NCBI GenBank assembly: GCA_029834535.1
Contig: JAQMWT010000315.1
Location: forward strand, 186,001 to 250,000
DNA: 64,000 bases
Origin: Chrysophaeum taylorii
Taxonomy: Eukaryota > Sar > Pelagophyceae > Pelagomonadales > Pelagomonadaceae
Direction of reading: 5' to 3'
Notes under the pieces: generated by a model
Databases searched by the model: none
What the model saw: only the letters and a program-made list of their open reading frames with translations
Told to the model about the DNA's origin: nothing
Shown: positions 42,751 through 64,000 of the stretch, one piece after another
Layout of the letters: the number at the start of each line of letters is the position of its first letter
Numbering within the stretch: the first letter of the stretch is position 1
Translations under genes and position numbers: made by a program

Positions 42751-43398
42751 GTAGTGGTTTTTCTCTCAGATACCCGCCCCTCTTGGCCGGACCAGAGGCC
42801 TCAACAAGCCCTTTCTCCCAACCCGAACCGCGGTTGAAACCACCACACGCCCGATCTCAGCGTAAACACTCACGCCATCTTAAAATCGGACAATCAAATG
42901 AGGGTAATAAATAGCAAGAAGACAGCAAGAAGGAAACAATACAAATGCCTGGTACATTGGGTTCAGTAGAAGCGCAGGTGAGGGTGAAAAGGTGACACCC
43001 CCCCCCATAATCGCAAGGTCAGTGCCAGGGCAACAATCAGGGTAAGTCAGGTGGCAGGCAGGCAAGTGGGGGGATGGGCGTTACTGCCACAGACCTTTTT
43101 AAGACAGAGGCCAGCCAAATGCATGGGGCGGAGGCTAATCCCAGCACTGTGTGGCAGTAATGCCCATTTCCTCTCACGTGCCTGCCTGCCACCTGACTTA
43201 CCCTGATTGTTGCCCTGGTATTGACCTTGCATTTATGGGGGGGGGGTGTCATCTCGACATCTTCACCTGCGCTTCCACTGGACCCAATGTACCGGGCATT
43301 TGTATTGCTTTCTTGCTGCCTTCTTAATATTACCCTCTATTGATTGTTCGATTTCGTGATGGCGTATGGTATTACGCTGAGATCGGGCGTGTGGTGGT
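42751..43398. mobile_element. long-inverted-repeat hairpin (foldback/MITE-like) element, left arm, loop and most of right arm
   Basis: Left arm 42751-43092 (gtagtggtttt... to ...ttactgccacag), loop 43093-43146 (54 bp), right arm from 43147 (ctgtgtggcagtaa...). The arms are about 85-90 percent identical by eye. The right arm is interrupted at 43398 by the LTR retrotransposon and resumes at 53863-53946, ending aaaaccactac. Uninterrupted, the element would be about 730 bp and could form one large hairpin. No coding sequence. Confidence 0.8.
43394..43398. repeat. 5-bp target-site duplication, left copy (GTGGT)
   Basis: GTGGT directly precedes the left LTR and again directly follows the right LTR at 53858-53862, the signature of integrase-mediated insertion. 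Confidence 0.85.
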
Positions 43399-43735
43399 TG
43401 TGGCGGCAACTCCCGCCTCCTAAGGCTTACCCCTCTTCTAGCCCCCCCCCTTATCAGGGGCACCCTACTCCGTTCCGATGATGTCAGAGTTTTCTCTGAC
43501 ATCATCTTCCTTTTCCGTGACAGGTGTCACCTTGATTTCTGATTTTCGATTATCCTTGATCATAAAGCAACAGCCGATCCTCAAGTTGAGAGGACCAGGC
43601 GCAGGAGTTGTTTGTGGTCGCGTGGCGGGAGAACGGCCATCCTCGTCCAGTGATCCCACCAAGGGCACGGACGCGATCGGCGAGCCAGGATTCGAAGGCA
43701 CGCCAGTTAGCCCCTAAAATTCTCCTTACGCCACA
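43399..43735 (+). repeat. left LTR (337 bp)
   Basis: Starts TGTGGCGGCAAC and ends TTACGCCACA, so the ends form a TGTGG/CCACA inverted pair. It differs from the right LTR by one extra C (near 43461) and one T/G substitution (near 43543). Confidence 0.92.
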
Positions 43736-43737
43736 GG

Positions 43738-43760
43738 TGGTGGAGGAATACGAGATTCGA
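43738..43760 (+). other. candidate tRNA primer-binding site
   Basis: Two bases after the LTR, TGGTGGAGGAATACGAGATT and the following CGA are complementary to a tRNA 3' end: TGG pairs with CCA, and the TTCGA part resembles a T-arm complement. The spacing differs from a standard tRNA by about one base, so the primer tRNA was not identified. Confidence 0.45.
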
Positions 43761-44200
43761 GCGACTATATCGGTCGCAGCGAACTAGTGCATCTTGCATT
43801 CTCTACACGGTCCGGACAAGCCGTGCGCGCCCTGATCAAGCGCGCCGACAAGGAATTCCAGAAGGACCATTGCCGTGGGAAAGTTCCCCGGCCGGATACG
43901 TTTGTCGTCGGAAGTGACGACGCGCGATTTGGTGCTAACCGACGCGCAACCCGGGTACCGCTGCCGCAGGCGAGCGGAGTGAGATCGCAACTCACGGATA
44001 AGGCATTGTTTGCCGGGCAGAGAAGAGTTCTGCCGCCCACCGTACGGATAGATTTGTCGGTGGAAGACGCACGCAACGACGATATTGCGCGTGTCGTGGA
44101 CGATTAGAAGTTCCGGAGCCGAAGGAGCACGAGAACGACGACGACTCAACCATTTTGGACCCGCTTTGATCTCGGCCGAGTAGAACGAGCCAGAGCCGAT

Positions 44201-45757
44201 ATGGAAGACGATGATGCTGCCGTCGAGCAGCTACGATATGAAGAACCGCCAAGCCGTCAGGATGAGACGAACGAGCGGAATGATGATGATGACAATGATG
44301 ACGATGAAGAAGAGCACGATACAGAGGTTGACGAGGAAGAAGAGCTAAATTACAACTACGACAAGCCCACGGAGAGACCGGCGGGAGGACGATCGACAGC
44401 TCCGTCAACGCGTGCAGAACCCCCGGATGCAACGACAATGAATGAGTTCTACGAGGCTCACTTGCGGGCATTACGCGAAGAGAACGAACGCGCGCAAGAA
44501 CGACTTTTAAAACAAATAGGGGGAGAGAACGAACGAAAAGAACGGCTACAACGGAAGGAGAACGAAGAATTAAAAGAGCAACTGCGCCGGGCCAACGCTC
44601 GAACGGACGCCTTCCAGGAACAAATAAGCTCGTTGACCCGTGAAAGAGACGAGTTACGTACGCCGAGTCGATCAAGGCGAGCGAGCAGCCCGGAGTCCCG
44701 AGCTGAGGAAGAGCCGCCGACTACACGACCACGCGCGAAAGCTAGAAAGCCGCGCTATGAAGACGATGAGGACGAAGAAAAGGAGGAGACGCGCGGAACC
44801 GGAAAGATCGACACCCAGGAGTTCTTGATGGGTTTTACGGATCGACTCGCGAGCGCGTTAGCTAAACACGATCGCAACAAGGAGCGGCGATCAACCTCTG
44901 GATTAAAAACCGAAACTTTTAAACTGGTTCTCGATGGACGCGATCAGGATCAGTTCGATTTAGATGCGGGTGCGGTGATGCGTACATTAGCCGAAGACCA
45001 TTTCAGCTTGGAGAAATTCCGATATCTGCTTCCCGCGACCCTGCGCGACACGGTCGCACCGATTTTTCGAGAACACTTAAAGAAATATGAAGACCTGTGT
45101 AAAGACCTCGATCACCCAGCGTCTTTCTATTTATGTCGGGATATCGACGATGAGGAGTACGGTTCCGTGGTACGACGGATACGACGATTGAACGAGAAGT
45201 ATTGCCTCAAGATTTTGAAATATTTCCGAGAGAGTTGTCCGCTGCCGGTGACGGCAGAGGAATCATTACGAAAGTTACAATGCACGACCCAAGCGACCGT
45301 TCCGAAACGCTCTGGAGAACGTCACGTGCATACATATTGCATTAAATTTCAGCAAGAAGCCATGGCATACTGTTCCGTGGCCAACCGCGATCTCAACGAC
45401 GTGGAGATCATCTCTTACTTGATACGTGGACTGGAGTCCAGCGAATTGAAATTCCGCGTGCGAACGATGCGCAGCGGACACCCGATGACGTATAAGACGT
45501 TTACGTCTACGTTGTCGCTGATTACGCGGCTCGAAAACGACTTCGCAACAGCCATGGCGGAGAAGAACAGCCGAAACTTGATGAACCCCTCGAGCGGGAA
45601 GCCGCAGAAGCCGCCGCCTGGACGCGGAGGACGAGCTCTCGTCTCGGGAACGAAAGAGAAGACGACGAAATATGAAGCCTTACGCCTCGAAGAAAAAGTG
45701 GTTCGAGAGGACGTGCCAGGACTGTGGGTTTTTCTTAGCGACCCACGACAAGGATGA
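44201..45757 (+). CDS. retrotransposon Gag
   Basis: 518 codons from ATG. The N-terminal 85 residues are acidic and disordered. Residues about 88-150 are a charged coiled coil (EENERAQERLLKQIGGENER). Residues about 225-440 form a helical capsid-like region, including FKLVLDGRDQDQFDLDAGAV and a C-terminal block EIISYLIRGLESSELKFRVR similar to the retrotransposon-gag domain. The last 86 nt overlap the next frame. Reading through to the Cys-rich segment needs a +1 shift near GAAGAAAAAGTGG (about 45692), which may be programmed as in Ty3. Confidence 0.75.
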   Translation: MEDDDAAVEQLRYEEPPSRQDETNERNDDDDNDDDEEEHDTEVDEEEELNYNYDKPTERPAGGRSTAPSTRAEPPDATTMNEFYEAHLRALREENERAQERLLKQIGGENERKERLQRKENEELKEQLRRANARTDAFQEQISSLTRERDELRTPSRSRRASSPESRAEEEPPTTRPRAKARKPRYEDDEDEEKEETRGTGKIDTQEFLMGFTDRLASALAKHDRNKERRSTSGLKTETFKLVLDGRDQDQFDLDAGAVMRTLAEDHFSLEKFRYLLPATLRDTVAPIFREHLKKYEDLCKDLDHPASFYLCRDIDDEEYGSVVRRIRRLNEKYCLKILKYFRESCPLPVTAEESLRKLQCTTQATVPKRSGERHVHTYCIKFQQEAMAYCSVANRDLNDVEIISYLIRGLESSELKFRVRTMRSGHPMTYKTFTSTLSLITRLENDFATAMAEKNSRNLMNPSSGKPQKPPPGRGGRALVSGTKEKTTKYEALRLEEKVVREDVPGLWVFLSDPRQG

Positions 45758-47534
45758 ACACGGGAACCGCGTCATTTGCAACCGCGAGCCCGACGACTAT
45801 TATGTAGCGATGTGCAAATACATCGAAGACGGCAGAAAGCCCATTTCGCGAGGACGATGGGAGAGCCGACAAAGGAAAAATAATCATTCGCGTGACGACG
45901 GTAGTTCTAATGCCACCTTCGGTTCGAGCGCTGCTCACGATATTCAGAGCAGACTCAATGATATGAGCACGCAGCTAACCACGGTTATGAGTACCGTGCA
46001 GCACTTAACAGATAGACGCGGCCGATCGTCTTCGACACGAACAGGCCGTCGAGATAGCCGGAGCCCCCGACGCCACGACAAGAGCCGTAGTAGCTCGTGC
46101 CAGCGCCGACGGAAAGATAGCAGGAGCTCCAGCCGACATTCACGCCGCCGCCGGCGACGAAGATCTCGCGATCGAGATTCGGACGATGGTCGTTACCGAG
46201 AAGACTCGGGACAGTCGTCTGCAACGTTCGCATTTACGACCCCTTGCGGTCAACAGTTACCATTAGGAGTGACGGTGTACCCGAACACGGACACCCGCAC
46301 CGACGACGCAGCCGACGCCCTTGCCGCGGCTGCATTCGAAGATCTTGCCCGCCCACCGATGGACGAGCCACCCAACGACGTGCTGACCAATCGTCGGTCT
46401 TTGGCACAGATTTATGAGCAGATGTCGAGCGATGAGCTCGAAGATTCGAGCGAGGAACTTGAAGCTACACGATACTGGGAAGGCGATTCAGATTCGGAAG
46501 ATGAAGAAGCTACACTTTGTGAACCAGTGTCTGCGTTAACGTTATTTGACGAGTCGTCCATGGACGACCCACCGTTTATTTTTGATGAGGAAGCCCTCGA
46601 TGCCATCGGCTTATCTTTGGACCCTCCAGAGACGACCGCTGGCGACCGAACTGGCTGTGAGCCAGACATGAATTTCTGCAGTGATAGCTCGTGCGCGCAT
46701 TCGACTGATGAGACGATGACAAGCGCGGGTATTGCAGACGACGATTTTACGACAGAGTTGACGTCGGGGACGACGCCATCTTTTCTTGCGGACCCCCCCG
46801 AAACGGTTTCGATTACTACGGATCGAGACACGGATACGCCGCCGGAAGAAAAGGATAGATTTATGAAGAAGATTAGCAGCGTTCTCGAGTGTGACGAAGA
46901 CAAGCAGACGTGGAACCTGCAGGATTGGTGGACGAAAGCTCGGAATTTCTTGCTGAAGAAGCCACCAGAACAACCGCGCAGCTGCAGACTCAAAGCCGCA
47001 GCTGACACGGAACCGATCGCCGATGCTGATGAGGATCAGCAGGCGACGAATGGATTTACAGATGCATTCTGGAAAGACGAAATGAATGATTTATGGGAGG
47101 GGTCCTTTGCTTCCGTGAACCACGAAGACCAGGATCCCTTACCAACACTGATTCCCTCTGAGATTGTCTTGGAGGAAGAGCGGAAGCCGCCAGATAAAGA
47201 GGCTGCCGCGAGCGTTATGGCTAGGAAGCCAACAACAGATAATACGAAAGCTCAAGCCGCGGTATCGATGCCCAACCCCGGAGATGAGCGAATCAGAGCC
47301 CGATGTGCTCACACTTCGTTGACGCCGCGAGACGGCAAGACGATCGAAGATGATTTGATTACCCTCCGTTGTTTAGATACGGGTTCTCTAACGTTTATGG
47401 CCTGTCACATCTACAGGAATCGTGACGGTCCGAAATTCTCGACGACCATCGGTGTCGATGGAATGGCCGATGTTTCTTTATATTTGCCGAGAAATGGTCA
47501 AAAAGTTGACCAAAGATCAGTTGATTTTCGATGA
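45672..47534 (+). CDS. retrotransposon pol N-terminal part: Cys-rich, Arg/Ser-rich, acidic spacer, start of aspartic protease
   Basis: 620-codon frame, +1 relative to gag. It opens with a Cys-containing segment (CQDCGFFLATH...VICN...MCKYI) that could bind zinc or nucleic acid, then a basic Arg/Ser stretch (residues about 115-175). A long acidic, disordered region (about 190-540) follows, and at 47373-47387 the retropepsin active-site motif LDTGS. The frame closes at 47534, shortly after the protease begins, and protease sequence continues in the next frame. The acidic spacer of about 350 residues is long for a Ty3/Gypsy pol. Confidence 0.7.
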   Translation: MKPYASKKKWFERTCQDCGFFLATHDKDEHGNRVICNREPDDYYVAMCKYIEDGRKPISRGRWESRQRKNNHSRDDGSSNATFGSSAAHDIQSRLNDMSTQLTTVMSTVQHLTDRRGRSSSTRTGRRDSRSPRRHDKSRSSSCQRRRKDSRSSSRHSRRRRRRRSRDRDSDDGRYREDSGQSSATFAFTTPCGQQLPLGVTVYPNTDTRTDDAADALAAAAFEDLARPPMDEPPNDVLTNRRSLAQIYEQMSSDELEDSSEELEATRYWEGDSDSEDEEATLCEPVSALTLFDESSMDDPPFIFDEEALDAIGLSLDPPETTAGDRTGCEPDMNFCSDSSCAHSTDETMTSAGIADDDFTTELTSGTTPSFLADPPETVSITTDRDTDTPPEEKDRFMKKISSVLECDEDKQTWNLQDWWTKARNFLLKKPPEQPRSCRLKAAADTEPIADADEDQQATNGFTDAFWKDEMNDLWEGSFASVNHEDQDPLPTLIPSEIVLEEERKPPDKEAAASVMARKPTTDNTKAQAAVSMPNPGDERIRARCAHTSLTPRDGKTIEDDLITLRCLDTGSLTFMACHIYRNRDGPKFSTTIGVDGMADVSLYLPRNGQKVDQRSVDFR

Positions 47535-47933
47535 AGGCGAACTTCCGATTAAGCGCAAGCTGTACGGATCAGGATTGAATACGACGACGATCCATCGTTG
47601 GATCGCCCTTCGGGTCGCTTTCGCCGACGACTTCGCTGCCCCCATTGTCGCTATTGTAGCCGATACGAATTTGCTTGTTCCTGTTGGGGGCGCGATATAC
47701 GAATTTTAGGAGCCATCGTGGATTTTCCCCATGATCGGATCTGTTTTTGTCGAACCCAAGTCGTCTACGGGCGCAAGAAGATTAAAGTTAAGGATGAACG
47801 AGTCGATGCACCAATCGTGACCTTTCGATCTATTTACGATCGAAATCCGATAACCGTACCGATTTACAATCATCAACACGATGCTTTCGGCAGAGTCTCG
47901 ACCTGGTCAAGACTCGAGTTTATGCTCGTTTGA
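47340..47933 (+). CDS. retropepsin-type aspartic protease, frame-disrupted
   Basis: Begins with LRCLDTGSLTFM. After a frame change near 47490 it reads ELPIKRKLYGSGLN and IVAIVADTNLLVPV. After a second change at the GGGGG run (47689-47693) it gives GRDIRILGAIVDFPHDRICF, the usual closing block of retroelement proteases (G-R-D-I-L...D). The frame ends at 47933. The domain is recognisable end to end but needs two shifts. Confidence 0.7.
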
Positions 47934-48600
47934 GCACGATTAAAGATCTCCGAAGCCCGCCGCCGGAACGTAAGGTAGCCATGGCTACGCGGGGACATGC
48001 TACGACCAAATTCTCCCCAGCTCCGGGAGAAGACGCGCGAAGTAATCGCTTATGCCGCGCGCACGCTAAATCGAGCCCGGTCGAACGTACAATCTACCGG
48101 TTATTTTGTCGAAGCCTATGGAAAAAGGACAGGTTTTCGTCGCTACGTTTGCTGAGAACGAGCAGTTGGGAATTGTCGAAGGAATGTTCTTCTTGCGAAG
48201 AGCGCGACCGGTCCGCTGCTCGGGTGGCAGTTACTGCCACGGAAGAAGTGCCGACGATCGTCACTCAAGGCGAAGCCCTTGCGATTGGTGATATCGTTAG
48301 GTACGAAGATGAGTTGAACGTCTCTACGATCAACGAACTTACGAAAGAATGTGAAGAAGGATACGACAAGGGAACCTTTCTTTCACCGTTTCTGTCGCTA
48401 GTCATTGACGCGATGCGACGAATCTCCCCGCCGATGCTGCTGAGCACGGTGCAGAAGGACGCTATGACCGCTATGACGGACAAGTCCACCCTCAAACGAC
48501 TTGAAGGCAGCGACGATTTCGCTCGAAGGTCAGAAAGATGAAAAAGAAATGCCGCGAGATCACCGAAGCGGAGATCCGCCGCCGATATGAAAAGGTTCAA
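47934..48600 (+). CDS. unassigned pol segment between protease and methyltransferase
   Basis: Coding-like pieces in three frames: REKTREVIAYAARTLNRARS and STGYFVEAYGK (about 48027-48125); GQVFVATFAENEQLGIVEGM, then FFLRRARPV (about 48124-48212); GEALAIGDIVRYEDELNVST with further helical sequence to about 48530. Just before the methyltransferase is CREITEAEIRRRYEKVQWLP. It might be an N-terminal regulatory domain of the methyltransferase. No family is recognised. Confidence 0.45.
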
Positions 48601-48607
48601 TGGCTTC

Positions 48608-49460
48608 CAATCACTTATCGCAAGGTGGTGATGGTTCAGTGGAGCCGGAGGCAGTACTTTAGGTCTCCAACGAGCCAACGAAACGTGTGGGACGTCGTTT
48701 CGAGTCGTGCTAGCACTCGATGCGTCGGACACCGCCAACCAGATCCACCACAAGAACTTTCCGAATATTCCTGTGGTGCAGCACACATTGTGTGGTCGCT
48801 ATGTTACAACCTTACGGTTGATCGAATCTTATTTACCCTACGCGGAATGGTCGTCGTCGATGTGTGTCGCGTCGCCACCCTGCGTACACTCCGCTCTGTG
48901 CAACTTGACTTCCAGAGATGTTGGGAAGGAGTCACCGCTACCCACTGGACGATGAAATTATGCAAGATGGCTGGTTTCTTCATGTGGTTGATAGAGCAGG
49001 AGGCTTCGATTATTTCTTACGTTGCACGTTTGCACCCTTACGTTTACGTCGTCAATTTTTACGACATAACTCCTAGTTTGATGAGCTGTCGTGTGCGATT
49101 GTTGGTTTCCAGCCATCCGCTCCATTTGCGCGCAGTTCCAAAGACTTGCAAGAATATGCAGCAAAAGTTCGCCGCAGCACTTGGTTACGCCGACGAACGA
49201 CATTTACTTCAGATGAACAATTTAGGATCATCACGAGCCGCGACAGACGCAGCTTATACTGTTACGCGTGTCCCGCTTCGCGTAGGACCGCACCGTTCTG
49301 ATTACAGATCTCTGAATCTGGAAATGACTTCGGAGTTGCTGACGATGCCCCCTGATTTTGAGTGGGCCGGCTTCTCCAGGACGACCTCGTTGAAACACTT
49401 GGCGTCCGTCGTGCCACCTGACACGATGGCCTTATTAATGCTCGATCTGCACAACTCTGT
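48608..49460 (+). CDS. cytosine-5 DNA methyltransferase domain inside the retrotransposon, frame-disrupted
   Basis: C5-MTases transfer methyl from S-adenosylmethionine to cytosine in DNA. Motif I: VVMV in one frame, then FSGAGGSTLGLQRAN (48635-48679), matching F-S-G-x-G-G-x-x-x-G-L. Motif II: VVLALDASDTANQIHHKNFP (about 48698-48757), matching A-x-D and the N-F-P that follows. Motif IV: ASPPCVHSA with the catalytic Cys codon at 48881-48883. A possible motif VIII RVRLLVSS lies near 49087. Motif IX/X: SLNLEMTSELLTMPPDFEW then ASVVPPDTMALLML (about 49309-49443), matching the L-x-x-E...P-D-F and GN-x-VPP blocks. ENV (motif VI) was not found. Frames shift near 48632 and 48910. About 280 codons is a compact MTase. 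Confidence 0.75.
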
Positions 49461-49862
49461 GACCAAGGAATTTCACCTGAGCGGCGAAGCTTTGCCGTCA
49501 GCGTTGAGTCCTGCAGACCGACCGTTTGATTATTATTTACAAATTGATGAAACCACCCTTCGTCACGTACAAGTTCCGCTGTTAAACACGCGCACACGTG
49601 TCATAAGATGGGTGTCGACTGATGATCTTCAAGATCACACCAAATGGAAACCTCCAGAGGTACCGTTGATTCCGCCTGCAACAGATGAGCCGGGGACGTC
49701 TCATGCTTCTTCTGCTGGGCCCCCCCGACAACCAAATTTAGACGTTCCGCCAGATCCTGAGCGAGATCGGGAACCGAAGATTAAGAGCGAGCCGAGTGTT
49801 CGTGTCAAAGGCGAGAGGATCAACAAAAGCCACCCGGAAGTGAAACTAAAATACGAGAAAAG
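49461..49862 (+). CDS. linker between methyltransferase and reverse transcriptase
   Basis: Continues the frame of motifs IX/X. It includes FDYYLQIDETTLRHVQVPLL and then a Pro/Glu/Lys-rich disordered stretch (PPDPERDREPKIKSEPSVRV). A one-base change at the AAAA run near 49858-49862 leads into the RT frame. No domain is recognised. Confidence 0.55.
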
Positions 49863-51020
49863 TTCGATGTGCCATGGAAAGATGCGCCGCGCGATGCCGA
49901 GGGTGCACCACTGCCGCAGACTCCTGAGCATGTCAAGGACAACGAAGCAATGAAAGTTAAAATTCCTACGAAGGAAGAAGTTGACAAGGTTGTGCAGGAG
50001 CTGGGAATTCCTGACAATCCGCACTTAGATGACGAGGCGAAACTGATGCTCCGTCACTGTGTGCAATATTCTTGGGCCTTTTTCGACCCGATTATGAGAC
50101 CTGTGGACTCGCCTCCCGTGTCTCTACGATTCAAAGACGCGAATCCGCGACCGATAAAGATGACGCCCTACCGATTGACGCCTGCGAAACTCGAGTGTCT
50201 CCGCAAGCAGATCAGCGAGTGGTGCCGGGATGGAGTCATTCGTCCGGCCAACTCACCTTGGGGCTTTCCTGTGTTGATGCTTCCGAAGAAAGGAGCTGAG
50301 ATTGGAACGTCAAACGCGTTCCGTGCTGCAGTTGACTTACGTCAGCTCAACGATCAATTGGTCAATGACAGTTGGCCAAACATTCGACAAGATGATGCTT
50401 TAGCCTTTCTCGCGATGAGACGATGGCGGACATGCATTGATATTAGATGGGGATACCACAACCTTCGTCTGGATCCGGCAGCGCAGGACGCTGTCACGAT
50501 GGTTAGCCCACTTGGCGCTCACAGTTTCTTGCGATTACCTCTAGGTGTGAAGACAGCCGGAGCTCTTTTCTGCAAGCAAATGGCGAGCGACCTTTCGAAA
50601 TGGATGTATCAAGACTTGGTTGCGTTTGTTGACGATATTATGATGGGATCCGACGATCTTCATCGACATTTACAAGTTTTGATCGAAGTGATGTGTCATT
50701 TGGCACAGAGAGGGTACAGCGGTCGAACCGCGAAGTTCCACCGTCTCAAAGATGATATAGAATTTCTGGGACACATTTCTACCCCAGAAGGCTTGAAGCC
50801 GAATCCAAAGACGCTGGAAGCACTGCAGAAGATGCCGATTCCAGGTACTTTACCGAATACTTCCCCGAAGACCCAGATACGCTCTTTCATCGGCATGAGT
50901 AATTACTGCCGGCGATATGTGAAGGGCTACTCGAAGATTGTGGAACCGTTGAGACGATTAAGCCTCGAAGGTTCGAGAGTGGACGCCCGAGTGTCAGAAA
51001 GCTTGGGATACGATTATTGA
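49863..51020 (+). CDS. retrotransposon reverse transcriptase
   Basis: Gypsy-type RT. The N-terminal entry is RPIKMTPYRLTPAKLECLRKQ, then GVIRPANSPWGFPVLMLPKK, FRAAVDLRQLNDQLV, WRTCIDIRWGYHNLRL (first catalytic Asp), FLRLPLGVKTAGALFCKQM, and the active site FVDDIMM (FVDD instead of the usual YxDD) near 50625-50640. FLGHISTPEGLKPNPKTLEA and FIGMSNYCRRYVKGYSKIVE follow. The frame closes at 51020. The true continuation REWTPECQKAWDTIIEALV is already in the next frame from about 50970. Confidence 0.9.
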   Translation, partial: FDVPWKDAPRDAEGAPLPQTPEHVKDNEAMKVKIPTKEEVDKVVQELGIPDNPHLDDEAKLMLRHCVQYSWAFFDPIMRPVDSPPVSLRFKDANPRPIKMTPYRLTPAKLECLRKQISEWCRDGVIRPANSPWGFPVLMLPKKGAEIGTSNAFRAAVDLRQLNDQLVNDSWPNIRQDDALAFLAMRRWRTCIDIRWGYHNLRLDPAAQDAVTMVSPLGAHSFLRLPLGVKTAGALFCKQMASDLSKWMYQDLVAFVDDIMMGSDDLHRHLQVLIEVMCHLAQRGYSGRTAKFHRLKDDIEFLGHISTPEGLKPNPKTLEALQKMPIPGTLPNTSPKTQIRSFIGMSNYCRRYVKGYSKIVEPLRRLSLEGSRVDARVSESLGYDY

Positions 51021-53481
51021 AGCTTTGGTTGATTCCCGAGGAGTCTACCACGCCGATTATGATCTGCCGTTTCAGATCCGATCCGATGCTTCCAAGGATG
51101 GACTTGGAGCATATCTCTTCCAAATTGTCGAAGTCAAGGACGATGCCGGAAGAGTGACTCGAGAAGAACGAGTAGTTGAATACTGGAGCCGAGCTGTGCC
51201 GAAGGAGATGCGGAATTATGAGCCCCGTCGGCTAGAGCTGCTGGCAGTTATACTTTCTCTAGAGCACTTTCGAGCCTACATTGAAGGGCACCGGACTGTT
51301 TTGGAGACCGATCACCGAAATTTGACGTTTTTACGTAAGGCGACGCACTCGTCTGGGCAGCTTGCTCGTTGGGCGATGCGCCTCGCCAATTTTGACCCTG
51401 AACTTGGTTATAAGCCGGGAAAGTCACCGGGAATGAGTATCCCTGACTGTCTCTCCCGCAACCCGATTGATCATGTCATCGAGACTGACGAGTTTGGAGA
51501 ACCTTTGAACCACGCGTATTTAGTGTTCCAAGAGCTTCCCCGACCTGTTGATGACCGAGGAGTTCCCGTCTCTGGCTGCCACTTCATTATGTCGTTTATT
51601 ACGACCGAACTGCCGGAAGACGGAGACGAAGACCCTGAAAAGGATCCGACGAAATTGGCTACGTCTCACGCTACGAGACAACGTCGGAAGAACCGTGCGC
51701 GTGATGAGCCACAGATCTTCAAGGACGCGGCCGCTTACAAAGATTATATCGATAAGATACCCGATAATATGACGCTCGCGGAGATCGCACGTGAACAAGA
51801 ATCTGATGCTACGTGCGAGGATATTCGCTACCGAATGGCCCAAGGTCAGACGCCACGACGTTCCCGAGCGAACGAACGATTCGAAGTCGTTAAAGATGTT
51901 CTTTACCGCATTTCTGCTGATTTGCACCCGATGATTGTTGCACCTGCTACGTTGCACAAACGCATTATTCGACTTTATCATGACACTCCGGTTAACGGTG
52001 GTCATATGGGACGTCACAGTACCGTCCAGGCTATCCAAGAACGATTTTGGTGGCCCCACATGTCGAACGAAGTTGGAGTCTTCATTGCTGAATGCTTAGT
52101 TTGTCAGAAAGCTCGTACGCCTGAGCCGAAACGAGCTGGACTCTTGCAGCAGCCCGTCTACGATGGTGATGGTGCTGTTCTTTGCATGGATTTATTTGGA
52201 CCCTTGCCCAGCGCTGGTCCCGAGACGTATCTTCTAGTATTTTTTGATCCGTTCTCGCATTTCTTGATTCTGGATGTTTTGAATGATAAGACTGCTGAGT
52301 CTGTCCTCGAGTCTTTTGTCATTAACATTCTCCTCAAGGGCTACTTGCCCCAGATGATTCGTACCGACAACGGTAAAGAGTTCGTGAACAAGTTGATGCG
52401 CGAGTTTTGCCATCTCTTTAACACACGATACCAAACTACGATTCCTTATCATGCCCAGTCGAACCCGGCTGAGCGTGTCAACCGATTTATCAAGGCCTTC
52501 CTCCGTGCTTGCCTTCAAGGCCGGAACATCACGGATTGGCCTGACTTTGCTCATTATATTGCGTTTTGCTACAACCGCAAGTTTATTCCAGGCACGCAGA
52601 TTTCTCCCTTTATGCTGCGCCTGAACCGTCAGCCGATGCTGCCGACTGACTACACGCTCATGGATTTTGATACACGATTATTGCCGAAGACTCGCTCCGA
52701 TGCAGTCGCCGAGACTCGCGAACGATTGAAATATTATACAAAGCTCGTCCGTGAGGCTCGTGATAAAGCTTTGAAGAAACAGCGATTGGCTTATAATGCT
52801 GATCATGTTGATGTTGAATACAAGGAAGGATCGCACGTTTTGCTCTACATCCCTTTCCTTCAGAACAAACTTCGACCGGAATGGCGAGGGCCGTTTATTA
52901 TCAAGGAACGCCTCTCCCCGGTCACCTATAGGATTGAGTCTCTCGACTCTCCGCCCGAAGAACGACGTGTTCATGTAAGTCAGATCACGCCGGTGATGGC
53001 ACCTCCGATCGTTGATCAAACCATCCGCAAACCCGAAGAAACCTTCCGTGATGATTATCAGCACGGTAAGTTTGTTGTTTTCCGGATTCCTGACCGGAAG
53101 CGCTCTGATTGGCGCAAGAAGATTTATGTTGCCGAAGTTTACGAGCCTTACGATTACCAAAATGATCGTGTCGCTCTACATTTCTATTCCGATTTGGGTC
53201 CGAACGATGATGTCGCTTATTTCAAGCCGACCTCTCACCTTTCGCACCGCAAGCTCAAGCCCGAATTCAAGGACGTTGAAGGTCGAAGTTTCACCGACAA
53301 GTCCCGAATTTCCTCCAACACAACTCCTTGTGTCACGGATTTCGCTCCGCACGAGATTGACGTGTTGGTCCCCAAGTTTACTTTACGCAGTGGTCGGGTT
53401 CCTGAACCGATCATCACCCGCGTTTACCAGAAGATTCGTTCACGAGATGCTCGTAAGGCGAAGCCGCGCTCCTCGCGTTAG
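50970..53481 (+). CDS. retrotransposon RNase H and integrase
   Basis: Enters the open frame at about 50970 (start-to-stop frame 51025-53481). RNase H: FQIRSDASKDGLGAYLFQI, RRLELLAVILSLEHFRAYI, ETDHRNLTFL. Integrase: zinc-binding HHCC (HKRIIRLYHD...GGHMGRHSTVQ...CLVCQKAR), then the DDE core with MDLFGPLPS, RTDNGKEFVN and HAQSNPAERVNRF, then a GPY/F-type C-terminus (EWRGPFIIKERLSPVTYRIE). The last 150 residues, after the GPY/F block, have no recognised chromodomain. Clean over 818 codons, and probably functional. Confidence 0.92.
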
Positions 53482-53521
53482 CACCTCGCTGGGGCAGCTC
53501 GAATTCTTACCAGAGGAGTCC

Positions 53522-53857
53522 TGTGGCGGCAACTCCCGCCTCCTAAGGCTTACCCCTCTTCTAGCCCCCCCCCTTATCAGGGGACCCTACTCCGTTCCGA
53601 TGATGTCAGAGTTTTCTCTGACATCATCTTCCTTTTCCGTGACAGGTGTCACCTTGATTTCTGATGTTCGATTATCCTTGATCATAAAGCAACAGCCGAT
53701 CCTCAAGTTGAGAGGACCAGGCGCAGGAGTTGTTTGTGGTCGCGTGGCGGGAGAACGGCCATCCTCGTCCAGTGATCCCACCAAGGGCACGGACGCGATC
53801 GGCGAGCCAGGATTCGAAGGCACGCCAGTTAGCCCCTAAAATTCTCCTTACGCCACA
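53522..53857 (+). repeat. right LTR (336 bp)
   Basis: Same TGTGG...CCACA ends as the left copy. No strong polypurine tract precedes it; the best is cagaggagtc at 53511-53520. Confidence 0.92.
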
Positions 53858-53862
53858 GTGGT

Positions 53863-58490: not shown

Positions 58491-58643
58491 TGGTTTTTTT
58501 CCCACTTTTGCTCTGTACAGCAGAACGGGCCGTATGCTTCACGAATTTTTACAATATTGTATTATAGGAGAAGAAAGAACGGGCGTTCTCCTCACAGTTC
58601 GCTGTAGATATATATATACGAATCTTTGCTTTCAAGGTGAACT

Positions 58644-61600
58644 ATGCGTACCGAAGGATTCGATGGTCTCGAATTGTCTAGAGAGCGACCAGGCATAGAA
58701 GGTGACGAAACTGGTATGACGTCGAGCAAGGCGCGATGGTCCCGCCGTCCCTGGAGCGAGGAAGTGACCTGGCAGGCGCAGGCACGCGAAACGGCCGCGG
58801 CGCTCAACGAGGAAATTTTCCTGACGTGGCTCGACAAAGATGGCGCAGAAACTGCCAACCTGTCGTATAAAATGGTCTGGAACCGCTCGGCGTTCGTGGC
58901 GAACTGGATTCTCGGGGACGTCGGTCTCGCGCCGGGTGATCGCGCCGTACTCGTGTACGCTCCGGGGCCGGAGTTCTTCGTCGCCTTTGTCGCGTGTCTT
59001 CGCGCTGGCGTCTTGGCCGTGCCAAATTACCCTCCCGACCCCTCCGGCCTTGGACGTGGCCTCAGGAAGCTGGATCTCGTACGCACCACCTGCGGCGCCG
59101 AGGTGGGCCTCACCGACAGCATCGTGCGCAATTTGCGCATGGCAACGAGCATATGGCACGCGTGGCCCGCGATACGCTGGCACAACACGGACGGCCTGGG
59201 CGCCGACTCGCCTCTACTTTTTCATCGGCTGATGAGCTCGGAGGAGCAGCAGCCAGATGACCCGATGCTACGAGTCTCGCGCAGCTCCAGCTCGAAGAAG
59301 AACGACGAGGGAGCCGCCGCGCGTTCGACGGTTTTTCACGACGAGCACGACGACGATGTAGCGCGTCGATCGCTCGCGCGCGTTCACGGTGGGGACGGGG
59401 ACCAACAAGCGAACATCGAAGGCGGCGGCGGCGAACGCCTCGACCAAGCCACGGATGACTCGATCGCCTTTCTTCAATTTACGTCGGGCTCGACGGGGTG
59501 CGCTATCGAGAGAGAGTCGTCAAAAAATCGATTTGACATCCCCGCAGGGACCCCAAGGGCGTCATGATTTCGCATCGCAACATCTGGCACAACGTCAACA
59601 ATATCTACATCCCTGGCCAGCACAACTTTCTCGGAACCCGCATCGGCGAGGCGGCGGCGAACCGATTGCACGACTTGGCCGAACCGTCGGAGCGAGTTGT
59701 CGGGGTTAGCTGGCTACCCCAGTTTCACGATAGTGGTCTGATGCTCATGTTGCTCGGGCCATTTCTCGCCGGCTAGAACCAGTGTGATAAGACATACCCC
59801 GATAGAAACGACGATAAGCTGTCCGACTTGTCGTCGGTTGGAAGAGTGATTAAAATTGTGCGCAGGCTATCGCATGGTCAACTTCTCGCCGGTCTCGTTC
59901 CTCGCCGACCCCTTGATGTGGCTGCGCGCCGTCTCCAAGTATCGCGCCATCTGGACGGCCTCGCCAGACTTTGGCTATCGGCTGTGCACGAAGCGCGCCG
60001 CCGATACCGATGTCAGCGACATCGACCTGAGCTGCCTGGTGTACTGCGCGGGCGGCGTCGGCCAGCGGTGCGTCCCGTCGCTCCTCCGCGAGTTCGCCGC
60101 CTACTTTGCAATCCACGCACGCCTCCCCGACGACGGCAGTCGCGGCATATTCGTGCCCAACTACGGCCTCGCCGAGCACGTCGTGGCGACTTGCGGCGAG
60201 AACGACGGCCTCGTCGCGTCCCGTCGGCGACCCGATCTCATCTCGTGCGGTTCAGACTTTATCGTCGACGTCCGTATCGTCGACGCCGCAAACCGACGAC
60301 GCATCGTCGCCGACAACACGCCCGGCGAGCTGTGGTTGAGCTCGGACTCGGTCGCCCAAGGATACTGGGGCAAGCCCGAGCTGAGTGACGAGACCTTTCG
60401 CGCGCGACTCGAGCCAGACGACGGCAAGGTATACCTGAGGACTGGCGACGAGGCCTTCGTGGAGCGGGGCCGCCTCTTCATCTGCGCTCGAATCAAAGAC
60501 TTGATCATCGTTGGCGGCACAAATTACTACAGCGATGACGTCGAAGTGGCTGCGACCGAGGCCATCATCGACTCGGCGAGACCAGGATGCGTCGCCGCCT
60601 TTGCCGTCGTCGACGACGACGACGAACGCGAATTTCTGTGCGTCGTGCTCGAAGTTCGAGACAACGCCGAATCGGAATGCGAGGCTCTCGCGGCCGCGCT
60701 CGCAACGAGGGTTGGCGAGGCTGTCGGCCTGCGACCGCGCCGCGTGGTGTTCATCAAACAGAAAACTATTTTGAAGACGACGAGCGGGAAGCTGAGACGC
60801 CGGGCGATTCGAGATGCGCTACTAGCTGGCGAGCTCCGCGTTATCTTTGACTCGAATTCAACACTTGGCGGCGGCGGCGAACAAAAGATGATACCACTTT
60901 CGGAGGAGGCAGTTGTTGGGGGGCACGACAGCATTGTTGCTCGGAACTACGACGACTCGACCGAGGGCAGCTACGTCCAGCGGCTATGGCGGCGGCTCGT
61001 CGGCGGTGGCGGCGATAATAAGGAGTCTCCCTTGACGACATCGTCATCACCAGAGGTGAAGGATACCTTTGTCGATCCGATGTTGAAGTGGTCCGAGCGC
61101 TTGCTCGCGGATGCTCGACGACGGACTTTCGAACTTTCTGATTTTCTGGGCGAGTGGGAGGTGCTCGACGACCATTACGCGATTCGACGCTTTCATATCA
61201 AGACAGAAAATGCAATCGACGATCGCGATAACGTATACCGCCAGCATCACCTGGGATGTGGCCGCTACGCGCACGAGGCTGCCGTCGTCGCAAAAATCAA
61301 AATTACGTTGGATGACGTCGAGCTGAGGCCTCGCGAAGCGGAGGCGCGACTCCCCCACGACCTCTACGTCCTCGTGCTCCACGCTACCGGCCTCGTCAAG
61401 TTCGTCCCGCACTCTGCGAGCTCGCTGCGTCCGCTTGCTTTGCTCGAAAGCCGCGACAAACTCGACGCCGAGATGAACTTGAAGCACGCAGAGGATTACG
61501 GCTGCTTTCGGTTTGGCATCGTCGTCGGGGACGGTCGAGAACGCAGGTTTCTCCGCCTTAATCGCTGGGCCACCGACAATCGCTACTTCTGGTCCGCTGT

Positions 61601-63300
61601 CAATATCACGCGCGACTTTCCCGACGGAGTCGACGAGCCGCGCGAGCTGATCGCGGCCGGGCTCGCCGCGCACCCCGGCGTTGACGGAACGAGGCCGTCT
61701 GGTGCTCTTCGCGACACGATCTTGGCATTAGAAGGCGAAAGCAACGATCGAGTCGGTGGTCGAACCACCGCGCTGCGATATCGGGCGGCGGCGGCGGCGG
61801 CGATCTCGCCGCGCGTCGATGATTTCCTGCTTGCTGGGCTATCCGGGAGCGAGTCGTCGTCGTTTTCTGGCGGCTTGGCACTCGTCGATCGCGTAGCGAG
61901 ACAGATCATCGACCTCTTCCCTCCAAACACATCCCTCAAAGACCACCCCGAATTGCCCCGCGTCCTCGGGCAGCTTGCCGTTACAGACGAGCTGATGCGA
62001 CGTCTTCACTACGACGAGTCTGTCACCGACGTCGCGACGTTCGTCGAGGCGATCAGGTCAAACGTCGTCAAGATGCCCGTGCTCATGCAGGTTGCGCAAG
62101 AACTCGAGAATCAACGACCCGGCCGCGGACTGCCAATTTCTGACGAGCGCGCCGCTGCAGACCTGCGAGGCGCCGTCATGTATTGTTTCGCGCTCCACGT
62201 GATCGGCATCTCAATGTTACGCGTGTCTTCGCCAACAACCGCCGATTCGGACTTTTTGCTCGATTTTTTGAAGACGCAACAAGCCGCCATAAATCAAGCG
62301 AAGTACGCCGTCGAAACCAGTTCACCCTTCGAGTATGAATATTTCGTGTGAGTGATTCGAAGAACATCGACGATGTAGGCTCATGAAACGCGAGGCTGTG
62401 CAATCATCCGCGCGAAGCATCGCGGAGACGAGACGCGACCCGAGTCAGCTCGCTATTGCCCGAGCAGCCGGCGGGCCTCTCGCGGAGAATATCTTGATGG
62501 CTGCCATCGAGGACGTCACAAAAAACTTTGACCGCAACGCTCGCACTATGGCAGAGTCCGCGCAACATTCACATTCCACCTTCCATGCTCGTTGTTCTCG
62601 TGAAAATCAACGCTGTTTTTAAACGAGGTGGATACGCGTTTTTTTATAGCGGACTAACCACCGTCTCTCAGGTGCTGGCTTCGAACTCGCCTACTGGAGC
62701 TGTGTGCTTCACCAACCAACCGCACGCGTTAAAGTTTCCTCGAGCGGGCTCTACTCGGGCGTCACGGATTTGGTAGGCTTTGACGTGTGCCCGGCAATGA
62801 TGTCAGAGTGGGTCCAAGTGTATCTCGTGTGGAATTTGTCGTTCGGGTTCACGGAGCCGCGCCCATTTTTGCCTCATGTCGCGAAGCTTTTGGTGCCGTG
62901 TTTACTATCTTTGACCAACGAAGACCCGACCTTTTTTTTGTGGATGCGCATTATGACGCTCAACGCGCACGTCACTTCGTTGGTTTGTCACCCCGAGCTC
63001 CGTTGGATTTCTTCGGCGACCTATGACTGGCGATCGACAGACACAAGTACTGCCTTGGGCGAACTGAGCGAACGTCTCGCTTTGCAACTGTCAAATTCTA
63101 TTTCGGCAAAACTTTCAGATAAGATATCGTCTCGGCGCGACGAAGAACGAGGCGACCCGCAGCTTGCGACGTGGTTCTCCAAGGCGCGGCATCAGACACT
63201 CGAGAGATACCGGCGCAGGACCGATCGAGATGCGCTGCTGGCCGTCAAACTCCAATCCGCCTTTGGTTTTAATGATCCGACGACGACGACGACGACTCTT

Positions 63301-63333
<33 letters not shown>

Positions 63334-64000
63334 GAACGACGACGCCACGAGCTCCTCACACTTCCCGAAGCGAAAGATCTCGTTGTGTGCACGTTGCGCT
63401 CCGTGATGGAATCGACGGATGAAAAAAACTTCTCGGTCACGACAAACTTTTTTGACGCGGGGGTCGACTCGCTCGTGATGTGCAATCTCGCGCTGGCTCT
63501 CGGCGACAAACTCGGCGGCGTAAGGATTCCGCTAAGTGCCGCGTTTGAGAATCCAACGATCGAGGCGTTTGCAGAGTTCCTGGTGAAACACGTCGCGTCG
63601 TCAAGCGGTACGAGCGAGCAAAGCGCGGTCCGCGTGGACCAACAACAGGGCGGCGCCGTCGTCGTCGATGGCGCTTCGAGAGCCCAGCCGAGAAAACTTA
63701 GGGAAAACGTACCTTTCTCGTGGAACCAGCTGCAGTTGCTGACAGAGTGTGCGTCCATAGAAAACGCCGGCCAAGGTGGCTCGGGTGTGTTGGCGTTTGC
63801 TGCGTGGGCTCGGGGGAGTTTTTCTGTTTTCGCGTTGCGAACGGCTTTAAACGCTCTCGTTCGGCGACACGCAATTCTCCGCACGACGTATGGAATCGAC
63901 AAGGACGACGGCCACTTCACGCAGAGCGAGCACGACCATATGGAAGTTGCCTTGCTTGATGCAGTTGCGAAAACCGAAGCGGAGGCGGTTCAGCGGGCAA
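58644..64000 (+). CDS. fatty-acyl-AMP-ligase-like / carrier / condensation megasynthase, 5' part (continues past the window)
   Basis: Spliced gene. Proposed exons: 58644-59497, 59548-59771, 59866-62347, 62379-62599 and 62672 onward. The first join restores TSGSTGDPKGVMISHRN (ATP-binding motif) and the second restores FLAGYRMVNFSP. Adenylating domain, residues 1 to about 680: VPNYGLAEHV, YLRTGDEAF, RIKDLIIVGGTNYYSDDVE (the G-x-NYY form of fatty-acyl-AMP ligases) and the catalytic Lys block LKTTSGKLRRRA. Then about 800 residues without a recognised domain. The carrier domain has FFDAGVDSLVM (phosphopantetheine Ser codon 63469-63471). The condensation domain starts with PFSWNQLQLL and RRHAILRTTYG. 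Such enzymes activate a fatty acid as acyl-AMP and pass it to a carrier for polyketide or lipopeptide assembly. Confidence 0.8.
59498..59547 (+). other. intron 1 of the megasynthase gene (50 bp, GT-AG)
   Basis: GTGCGC...CCGCAG. Removal joins ACG-GG to GGACCCC and restores the unbroken AMP-binding motif. Confidence 0.85.
59772..59865 (+). other. intron 2 of the megasynthase gene (94 bp, apparently GC-AG)
   Basis: The reading frame meets TAG at 59774. The only join that keeps the conserved FLAGYRMV region removes GCTAGA...GTGCGCAG, a GC-AG intron. A GT donor further on would leave the stop in the exon. Confidence 0.7.
62348..62378 (+). other. candidate 31-bp intron 3 of the megasynthase gene
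   Basis: GTGAGT donor directly after TATTTCGT, acceptor GATGTAG. Removal joins two open frames in phase. It is unusually short, so an alternative is that the first gene ends at 62351. Confidence 0.5.
62600..62671 (+). other. intron 4 of the megasynthase gene (72 bp, GT-AG)
   Basis: GTGAAA donor, branch-like CTAAC near 62654 and acceptor CTCTCAG. It joins in phase into the open frame that leads to the carrier domain. Confidence 0.65.

Follow-up and report, generated by a model that had tools for sequence, protein, structure and literature searches.

Does the retrotransposon inserted at this locus carry a cytosine-5 DNA methyltransferase (DNMT) upstream of its reverse transcriptase (RT), and if so, what would such an element gain from it? 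The window, that is the whole stretch of 64,000 nucleotides that was analysed (C315:186001-250000, from an assembly of 70.8 Mb in 697 contigs), had been proposed to contain a C5-methyltransferase lying between the protease and the RT of a Ty3/Gypsy LTR element. We examined in turn the architecture of this element, the relationship of the domain to known C5-methyltransferases, its distribution and selection in the genome, and the traces that its activity might have left.

An LTR-bounded element of the Ty3/Gypsy type

The Ty3/Gypsy-type element spans positions 43399-53857 of the window and is read on the forward strand, like all the coding features given below. It is bordered by a 5' LTR (TGTGGCGG...CGCCACA, 43399-43735, + strand) and a 3' LTR (53522-53857, + strand), the alignment of which comprises 340 identical positions out of 343, one substitution and two gaps (99% alike). 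The exact 5-mer GTGGT is found immediately outside both LTRs, at 43394-43398 and 53858-53862, so that the predicted LTR boundaries and perfect 5-bp target duplication are indeed there. Pfam matches in the window identify the RT core (PF00078, 50283-50777, E 1.1e-12), RNase H (PF17917, 51055-51393, E 8.8e-26), the H2C2 zinc-binding domain of the integrase (PF17921, 51943-52119, E 1.2e-17) and the integrase core (PF00665, 52171-52452, E 3.3e-12). This succession of RT, RNase H and integrase is the Gypsy order of Pol.

In the 5' part of the element, a 549-aa open reading frame (44108-45754), without Pfam match above cut-off, is called gag-like from its position, and a 649-aa stretch in another frame (45585-47531) would correspond to a gag/protease region. 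The protease itself is presumptive: no Pfam protease was found in the frames of the window or in those of the open copies described below, and the sole protease-like sign is an LDTG at 47373-47384. The predicted location of the methyltransferase thus holds as regards its position upstream of RT, and on the protease side it comes down to this short motif.

Outside the element, at 58641-63999 of the window, long frames resemble, by eye only, a multidomain gene of the AMP-binding, acyl-carrier and condensation type.

A methyltransferase domain read in two frames

In the window copy, the N-terminal part of the DNMT domain lies in frame 2 (48632-48952), where it is identified by PF00145 and hhalign. 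It includes motif I, FSGAGGSTLGL (48635-48667), motif II, VVLALD (48704-48721), the sequence KNFPN (48752-48766) and motif IV, ASPPC (48869-48883). The C-terminal part lies in frame 1 (48957-49420, the start being approximate), with a candidate motif VIII, SCRVR..., recognised by eye (49084-49113), and the sequence PDFEW (49351-49365); motif IX (49303-49326) and the end of motif X (ASVVPP, 49402-49419, the VVPP block) were placed there by hhalign of the C-terminal half. All the C5-methyltransferase motifs named in the original prediction are therefore present, and in order. Since motifs I-IV are in frame 2 and motifs VIII-X in frame 1, the window copy is frameshifted inside the DNMT domain.

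The domain is not confined to this copy. Searches at the DNA and protein levels detected it at at least 140 distinct places on 123 contigs, some of which may be allelic or on duplicate contigs (e.g. C10/C297), and these fall into two subfamilies, between which identity over the DNMT domain is about 76-78%. Intact copies, which the original prediction had suggested looking for, do exist: in two open copies on contig C5, the longest frames (3063 and 3067 aa) include both the DNMT and RNase H-integrase, the DNMT being in frame with RT.

In a comparison with 18 other aligned copies over 4.56 kb (46900-51460), 13 internal indels, all of them frame-changing, proved private to the window copy, as did two further ones at the alignment edge. 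The number of private indels ranges from 0 to 14 in the other aligned copies, and reaches 54 in the rearranged copy L023. Given that its LTRs are nearly identical, the window insertion is young, or its sequence contains local errors, or both. Frames are also broken, in other copies, by length variants of the GGGCCCCCCC run located between DNMT and RT (49717-49726, + strand). At this site, a mixed G/C run of 10 nt is found as GGGC7, GGC8 or GC9 (41/52 loci read), together with variants of 7, 8, 9 and 11 nt. Among the places listed, the match is broken at the run in 26 out of 96, and in 19 out of 50 for the other subfamily. This variation may be due to slippage, to errors in the assembly or to a device for frameshifting.

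Relationship to C5-methyltransferases

When frames were searched with PF00145, as the original prediction had advised, the window frame reached 18.5 bits, under the cut-off of 22, and an isolated 440-aa stretch of two open copies passed it with 24.2 and 24.7 bits. In these open copies the alignment covers motifs I-II only, and inside the 1521-aa frame of one open copy the score is 20.1 bits, below cut-off.

Profiles were then compared with hhalign. The template (A3) consisted of ten canonical C5 enzymes, namely nine enzymes from phages or plasmids and the host gene that we take to be DNMT2-like (see below); this gene served as query to retrieve the phage and plasmid enzymes (12 records, from which L071, L074 and L075 were excluded). 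An alignment of 16 members of the window family (A2), shallow with a Neff of 1.17, matched the template over motifs I-IV with a probability of 96.2 and an E value of 2.6e-9 (95.2 and 2.6e-8 with a slightly altered input), and the full path spans the template end to end. The C-terminal half alone (residues 106-310) aligned with the template at motifs IX-X with a score of 29.4, for a probability of only 24 and an E value of 8.2e-4. As a control, 60 column permutations of this half gave scores of at most 18.4, and the reversed version 15.5. From the full path and the match of the C-terminal half, the domain is, as judged by profile comparison, a complete and highly divergent C5-methyltransferase homologue, with its weak point in the central region, at motifs VI-VIII.

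Might the motifs be chance matches in an unrelated linker? Three results go in this direction: a PF00145 search of the genome (123 scored of 474 candidates) found 57 places, none of which belongs to the window family, the structure of the domain predicted by AlphaFold has a mean pLDDT of 33.3, too low for fold searches, and the hhalign probability of the C-terminal half is low. However, both halves align with the template in the expected order and do better than permuted controls, and PF00145 is above cut-off in two open copies. We therefore hold chance matches to be very unlikely.

Selection on the domain and copies without it

The dN/dS ratios (Nei-Gojobori, pairwise medians) were computed on open copies of the first subfamily, 31 of which were examined; copies with stops, frame breaks or less than 95% coverage of the domain were removed before each count, and this restriction to open copies lowers the ratio in every domain. 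Median dN/dS was 0.204 for DNMT (29 copies, pooled pN/pS 0.216), to be compared with 0.148 for RT (23 copies, pooled pN/pS 0.191), 0.301 for the linker (23 copies, pooled pN/pS 0.338) and 0.329 for the region before DNMT (16 copies, pooled pN/pS 0.361). A median of 0.10 for RNase H, obtained from 3 copies only, was set aside. When the DNMT was compared with that of two second-subfamily members, the ratio was 0.056 and 0.069, at dS values of 2.4 and 1.7 that are near saturation. The DNMT domain is under purifying selection, almost as strong as on RT and stronger than on its neighbours; selection maintains it within the element. The central claim made for this locus, a C5-methyltransferase homologue placed upstream of RT in a Gypsy-type element, is thus upheld, and extends to a multi-copy family under purifying selection. 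That the domain is a real DNMT homologue maintained by selection is, to us, nearly certain.

We also looked at copies devoid of the domain. Among the matches listed, no DNMT was found upstream at 28 of the 54 RNase H-integrase places and at 61 of the 73 RT places. Flanks were read for four of the 28, and three of these remain collinear as far as about 49480, a point in the linker shortly after motif X; the DNMT domain itself is likely present in these three copies. The copy L036 (C119:4800-5060) lacks positions 48697-49727, i.e. the DNMT after motif I through the G/C run. Its deletion junction was found at 2 of 40 scored places, the second being C41:30719-30978, and this type is a DNMT-less derivative that was copied or duplicated at least once. 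Hence, among the matches listed, no ancestral domain-free copy running from protease to RT appears, only two places with a common secondary deletion.

Host DNMTs and a second repeat family

The 57 places found by the PF00145 search of the genome comprise L001, L002 and 55 others. From their motifs, we take L001 (PF00145 4.1e-19) to be a DNMT2-like host gene, and L002 (C621:16962-17498), which has a 2086-aa open frame with the catalytic motif GTSC, to be a large DNMT5-like gene, perhaps a maintenance enzyme of the host. Among the 55 others, 29 overlap places of a second DNMT-like repeat family and three (L003, L005 and L008) match a member of it directly. This second family (L003-L008 together with 65 or more other places) amounts to at least 71 places, counted as 68 places from 79 search rows plus L003, L005 and L008, and to 94 if the remaining 23 belong to it. 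Its frames reach 1952 aa, with no stop inside the match, and contain, besides a DNMT-like domain (PF00145 1.1e-9), a protease-like motif, DGGAS; no consistent RT neighbour was seen by eye among the PF00078 and PF07727 matches listed. Like the window family, it is dispersed and has a C5-methyltransferase-like domain, but it keeps ENV and has LPC in place of PPC.

With hhalign, the second family gave 95.7 (E 1e-8) to the template and 0.45 to the window family, that is, no specific relation between the two families. In tblastn (E up to 10), the frame of L016 had no match to the DNMT domain of L001 or L002. Based on these two comparisons, the DNMT of the window family plausibly derives from a separate capture, with respect to L001, L002 and the second family only. 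A few short exact patterns, which reach close relatives only, retrieved no relative from viral contigs or from other genome contigs.

The genome is retroelement-rich: of 1670 candidates for Copia-type RT (PF07727), 150 were scored and all 150 matched, and a distinct group of PF00078 matches stands at about 91 bits. The rubisco large chain was found in the genome as well, and its best matches in the PDB are mostly diatom enzymes. A Perkinsus or dinoflagellate host, considered at first, was rejected, the spliced-leader pattern having 0 matches; the host would be a stramenopile-like alga with a red-lineage plastid.

Catalytic residues

Motifs I and IV (PPC) are present in the correct order, both in the alignment and by hhalign. 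The three glycines of motif I are kept in 16 of the 16 aligned copies, and the cysteine of motif IV in 15, the exception being an Arg in L063. Motif VI can be read in two ways. The full hhalign path places ENV over VYVV-NF, leaving the motif VI Glu unmatched, and favours RLHPYVYVVNF as a motif VI without Glu. By eye and spacing, the candidate is WLIEQE at 48985-49002 (or else the motif lies at 49027-49059), with a residue E142 that is kept in 15 of the 16 copies (Lys in L068). Cys104 and E142 are separated by 38 residues, exactly as Cys73 and Glu111 in the canonical alignment, so the motif VI Glu may be kept. In the candidate motif VIII, assigned by eye, RxR is kept and the Gln of QxRxR is replaced.

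These residues are critical for another reading of the domain, as a former methyltransferase that took on another job, such as binding SAM, DNA or RNA, or being a structural part of the particle, and that does not methylate. The Glu left unmatched in the full hhalign path, the lost Gln of motif VIII, the extreme divergence of the domain and the lack of a CpG signature (see below) are all in its favour, whereas the preservation of the motif IV Cys and of the motif I glycines, together with a canonical Cys104-E142 spacing by which the Glu may be kept, argues against it. We regard this loss of activity as an unlikely, if serious, alternative. The domain is, in our view, probably catalytically active.

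Methylation traces

The original prediction had suggested that the element might methylate its own or host DNA and thereby evade or hijack silencing. The element has an observed/expected CpG ratio of 1.32, against 1.30 for the remainder of the window; the ratio is 1.23 for DNMT and 0.83 for the LTR, which is a short stretch. Transitions per site were counted in 28 of the 31 aligned copies, leaving out the three copies at 90% identity or less: they amount to 0.071 at CpG, 0.078 at CHG, 0.072 at CHH and 0.072 at A/T. We thus found no sign of CpG methylation of the copies, either in the CpG content of the window or in the substitutions of these 28 copies. With CpG undepleted and CpG transitions not raised, lasting CpG methylation of the copies is argued against, and the suggested methylation of own or host DNA receives no support from these data.

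Could the enzyme instead alter host chromatin in trans, by methylating host silencing loci or rival elements? At least 140 places could supply it, and the many Copia-type RTs of the genome offer possible rivals. Nevertheless, the rest of the window is free of CpG depletion, Pfam detected no chromatin-reading domain in the frames scanned, and we deem this action in trans quite improbable.

Alternatively, the target may be RNA (element RNA or primer tRNA) rather than DNA, as for DNMT2-like enzymes. The copies bear no CpG mutational trace, which is in line with such a target, and the only methyltransferase chains among the PDB matches listed for the domain, hence its best ones of this type, are DNMT2-type (E 0.06-0.07 in one search, 0.40-0.42 in the other). 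These matches are nonetheless non-significant and limited to motifs I-II, and the second search ranks an unrelated protein higher (E 0.12). A strict RNA target, which overlaps the explanation that we prefer, seems to us rather unlikely.

A proposed role during replication

The explanation that we prefer is as follows. A single capture of the DNMT domain would have preceded the divergence of the two subfamilies, and the domain would function within the Gag-Pol particle as one of its modules. As a part of Gag-Pol, it would travel in the particle and meet the RNA and cDNA of the element, and methyl groups would go to cytosines of the element's nucleic acid (new cDNA, RNA or primer tRNA) during replication. 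Such a short-lived mark could help the copy by protection, masking or integration, and integrated copies would be left without CpG methylation. Methylation of element RNA or cDNA in the particle is, we infer, the simplest benefit. We consider it moderately probable that a singly captured, Gag-Pol-borne DNMT methylates the element's nucleic acid during replication; on the narrower point of whether the target would be this nucleic acid rather than host DNA, our opinion is evenly divided.

A bolder proposal, which we make tentatively and believe to be rather doubtful, is that captures in two unrelated repeat families of this one genome, independent of the known charophyte and dinoflagellate cases, provided enzymes whose substrate is a short-lived replication intermediate (RNA, cDNA or the tRNA used as primer). 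As CpG is not depleted in the window family and its CpG transitions are not raised, its enzyme would act on such an intermediate. If this were true, cytosine methylation would be a step in how retrotransposons replicate, rather than a mark of the host genome. Recurrence in unrelated elements would also make a benefit at the level of replication likely. With its open frames and ordinary LTRs, the window family is suited to asking what a transposon gains from a methyltransferase.

Comparison with known DNMT-bearing elements

As in DNMT-bearing retrotransposons, the DNMT of the window family is in the coding region, multi-copy and under purifying selection. PMC5890265 reports DNMTs in LINE and DIRS elements of Symbiodinium, and describes a Gypsy element of Klebsormidium nitens that carries a Dnmt3. 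In the same paper, CG methylation in yeast was obtained with two DNMTs of Symbiodinium DIRS elements, activity being reported for DIRS enzymes only; for the Klebsormidium Gypsy DNMT none was seen in yeast, a result that its authors judge inconclusive. According to PMC12344493, some DNMT3 members lie within LTR Copia and DIRS elements, as reported for streptophytes and dinoflagellates, and PMC12477816 describes a DNA transposon of Ectocarpus, Sola1-1, with a ParB-like domain and a DNA methyltransferase domain predicted to be of the N4-cytosine or N6-adenine type. In the accessible parts of PMC9998398, PMC6338049 and PMC12477816, no red-plastid alga is described as having a Gypsy element with a C5-DNMT, and searches of open-licence papers turned up no other case.

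The element of Klebsormidium, KnitGypsy-Dnmt3, is, like the window family, a Gypsy-type element present in several copies, whose Pol polyprotein includes a C5-DNMT, and purifying selection on the DNMT is comparable (Ka/Ks below 0.2, as given in the excerpts of PMC5890265, and a median of 0.20 here). It differs by a recognisable Dnmt3 and a DIRS-like repeat structure (same excerpts), whereas the window family has ordinary direct LTRs and a far more divergent domain; here, moreover, the DNMT is upstream of RT and the host has a red-lineage plastid. SymbioDIRS-Dnmt3 and SymbioLINE-Dnmt are likewise retrotransposon-borne C5-DNMTs with many copies and conserved key residues, but they belong to DIRS (tyrosine recombinase) or LINE elements, not to LTR/integrase elements, and SymbioLINE-Dnmt is reported to be CpG-depleted, unlike the window family (excerpts of PMC5890265). 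Sola1-1 of Ectocarpus is, again like the window family, a methyltransferase-bearing mobile element of a stramenopile alga; as described in the excerpts of PMC12477816, it is however a DNA transposon with a predicted N4/N6-type enzyme, the window family being a retrotransposon with a C5-type domain.

The window family therefore adds a probable further lineage, and a probable further capture, to the short list of DNMT-bearing retrotransposons. Because its domain is so divergent that none of the at least 140 places is among the 57 listed by the Pfam search of the genome (123 of 474 candidates scored), further cases may have gone unnoticed, a hint that acquisition of a DNMT by such elements is commoner than is known. 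In sum, the kind of element is already known, and what is new here is its lineage, its divergence and its ordinary LTR architecture.
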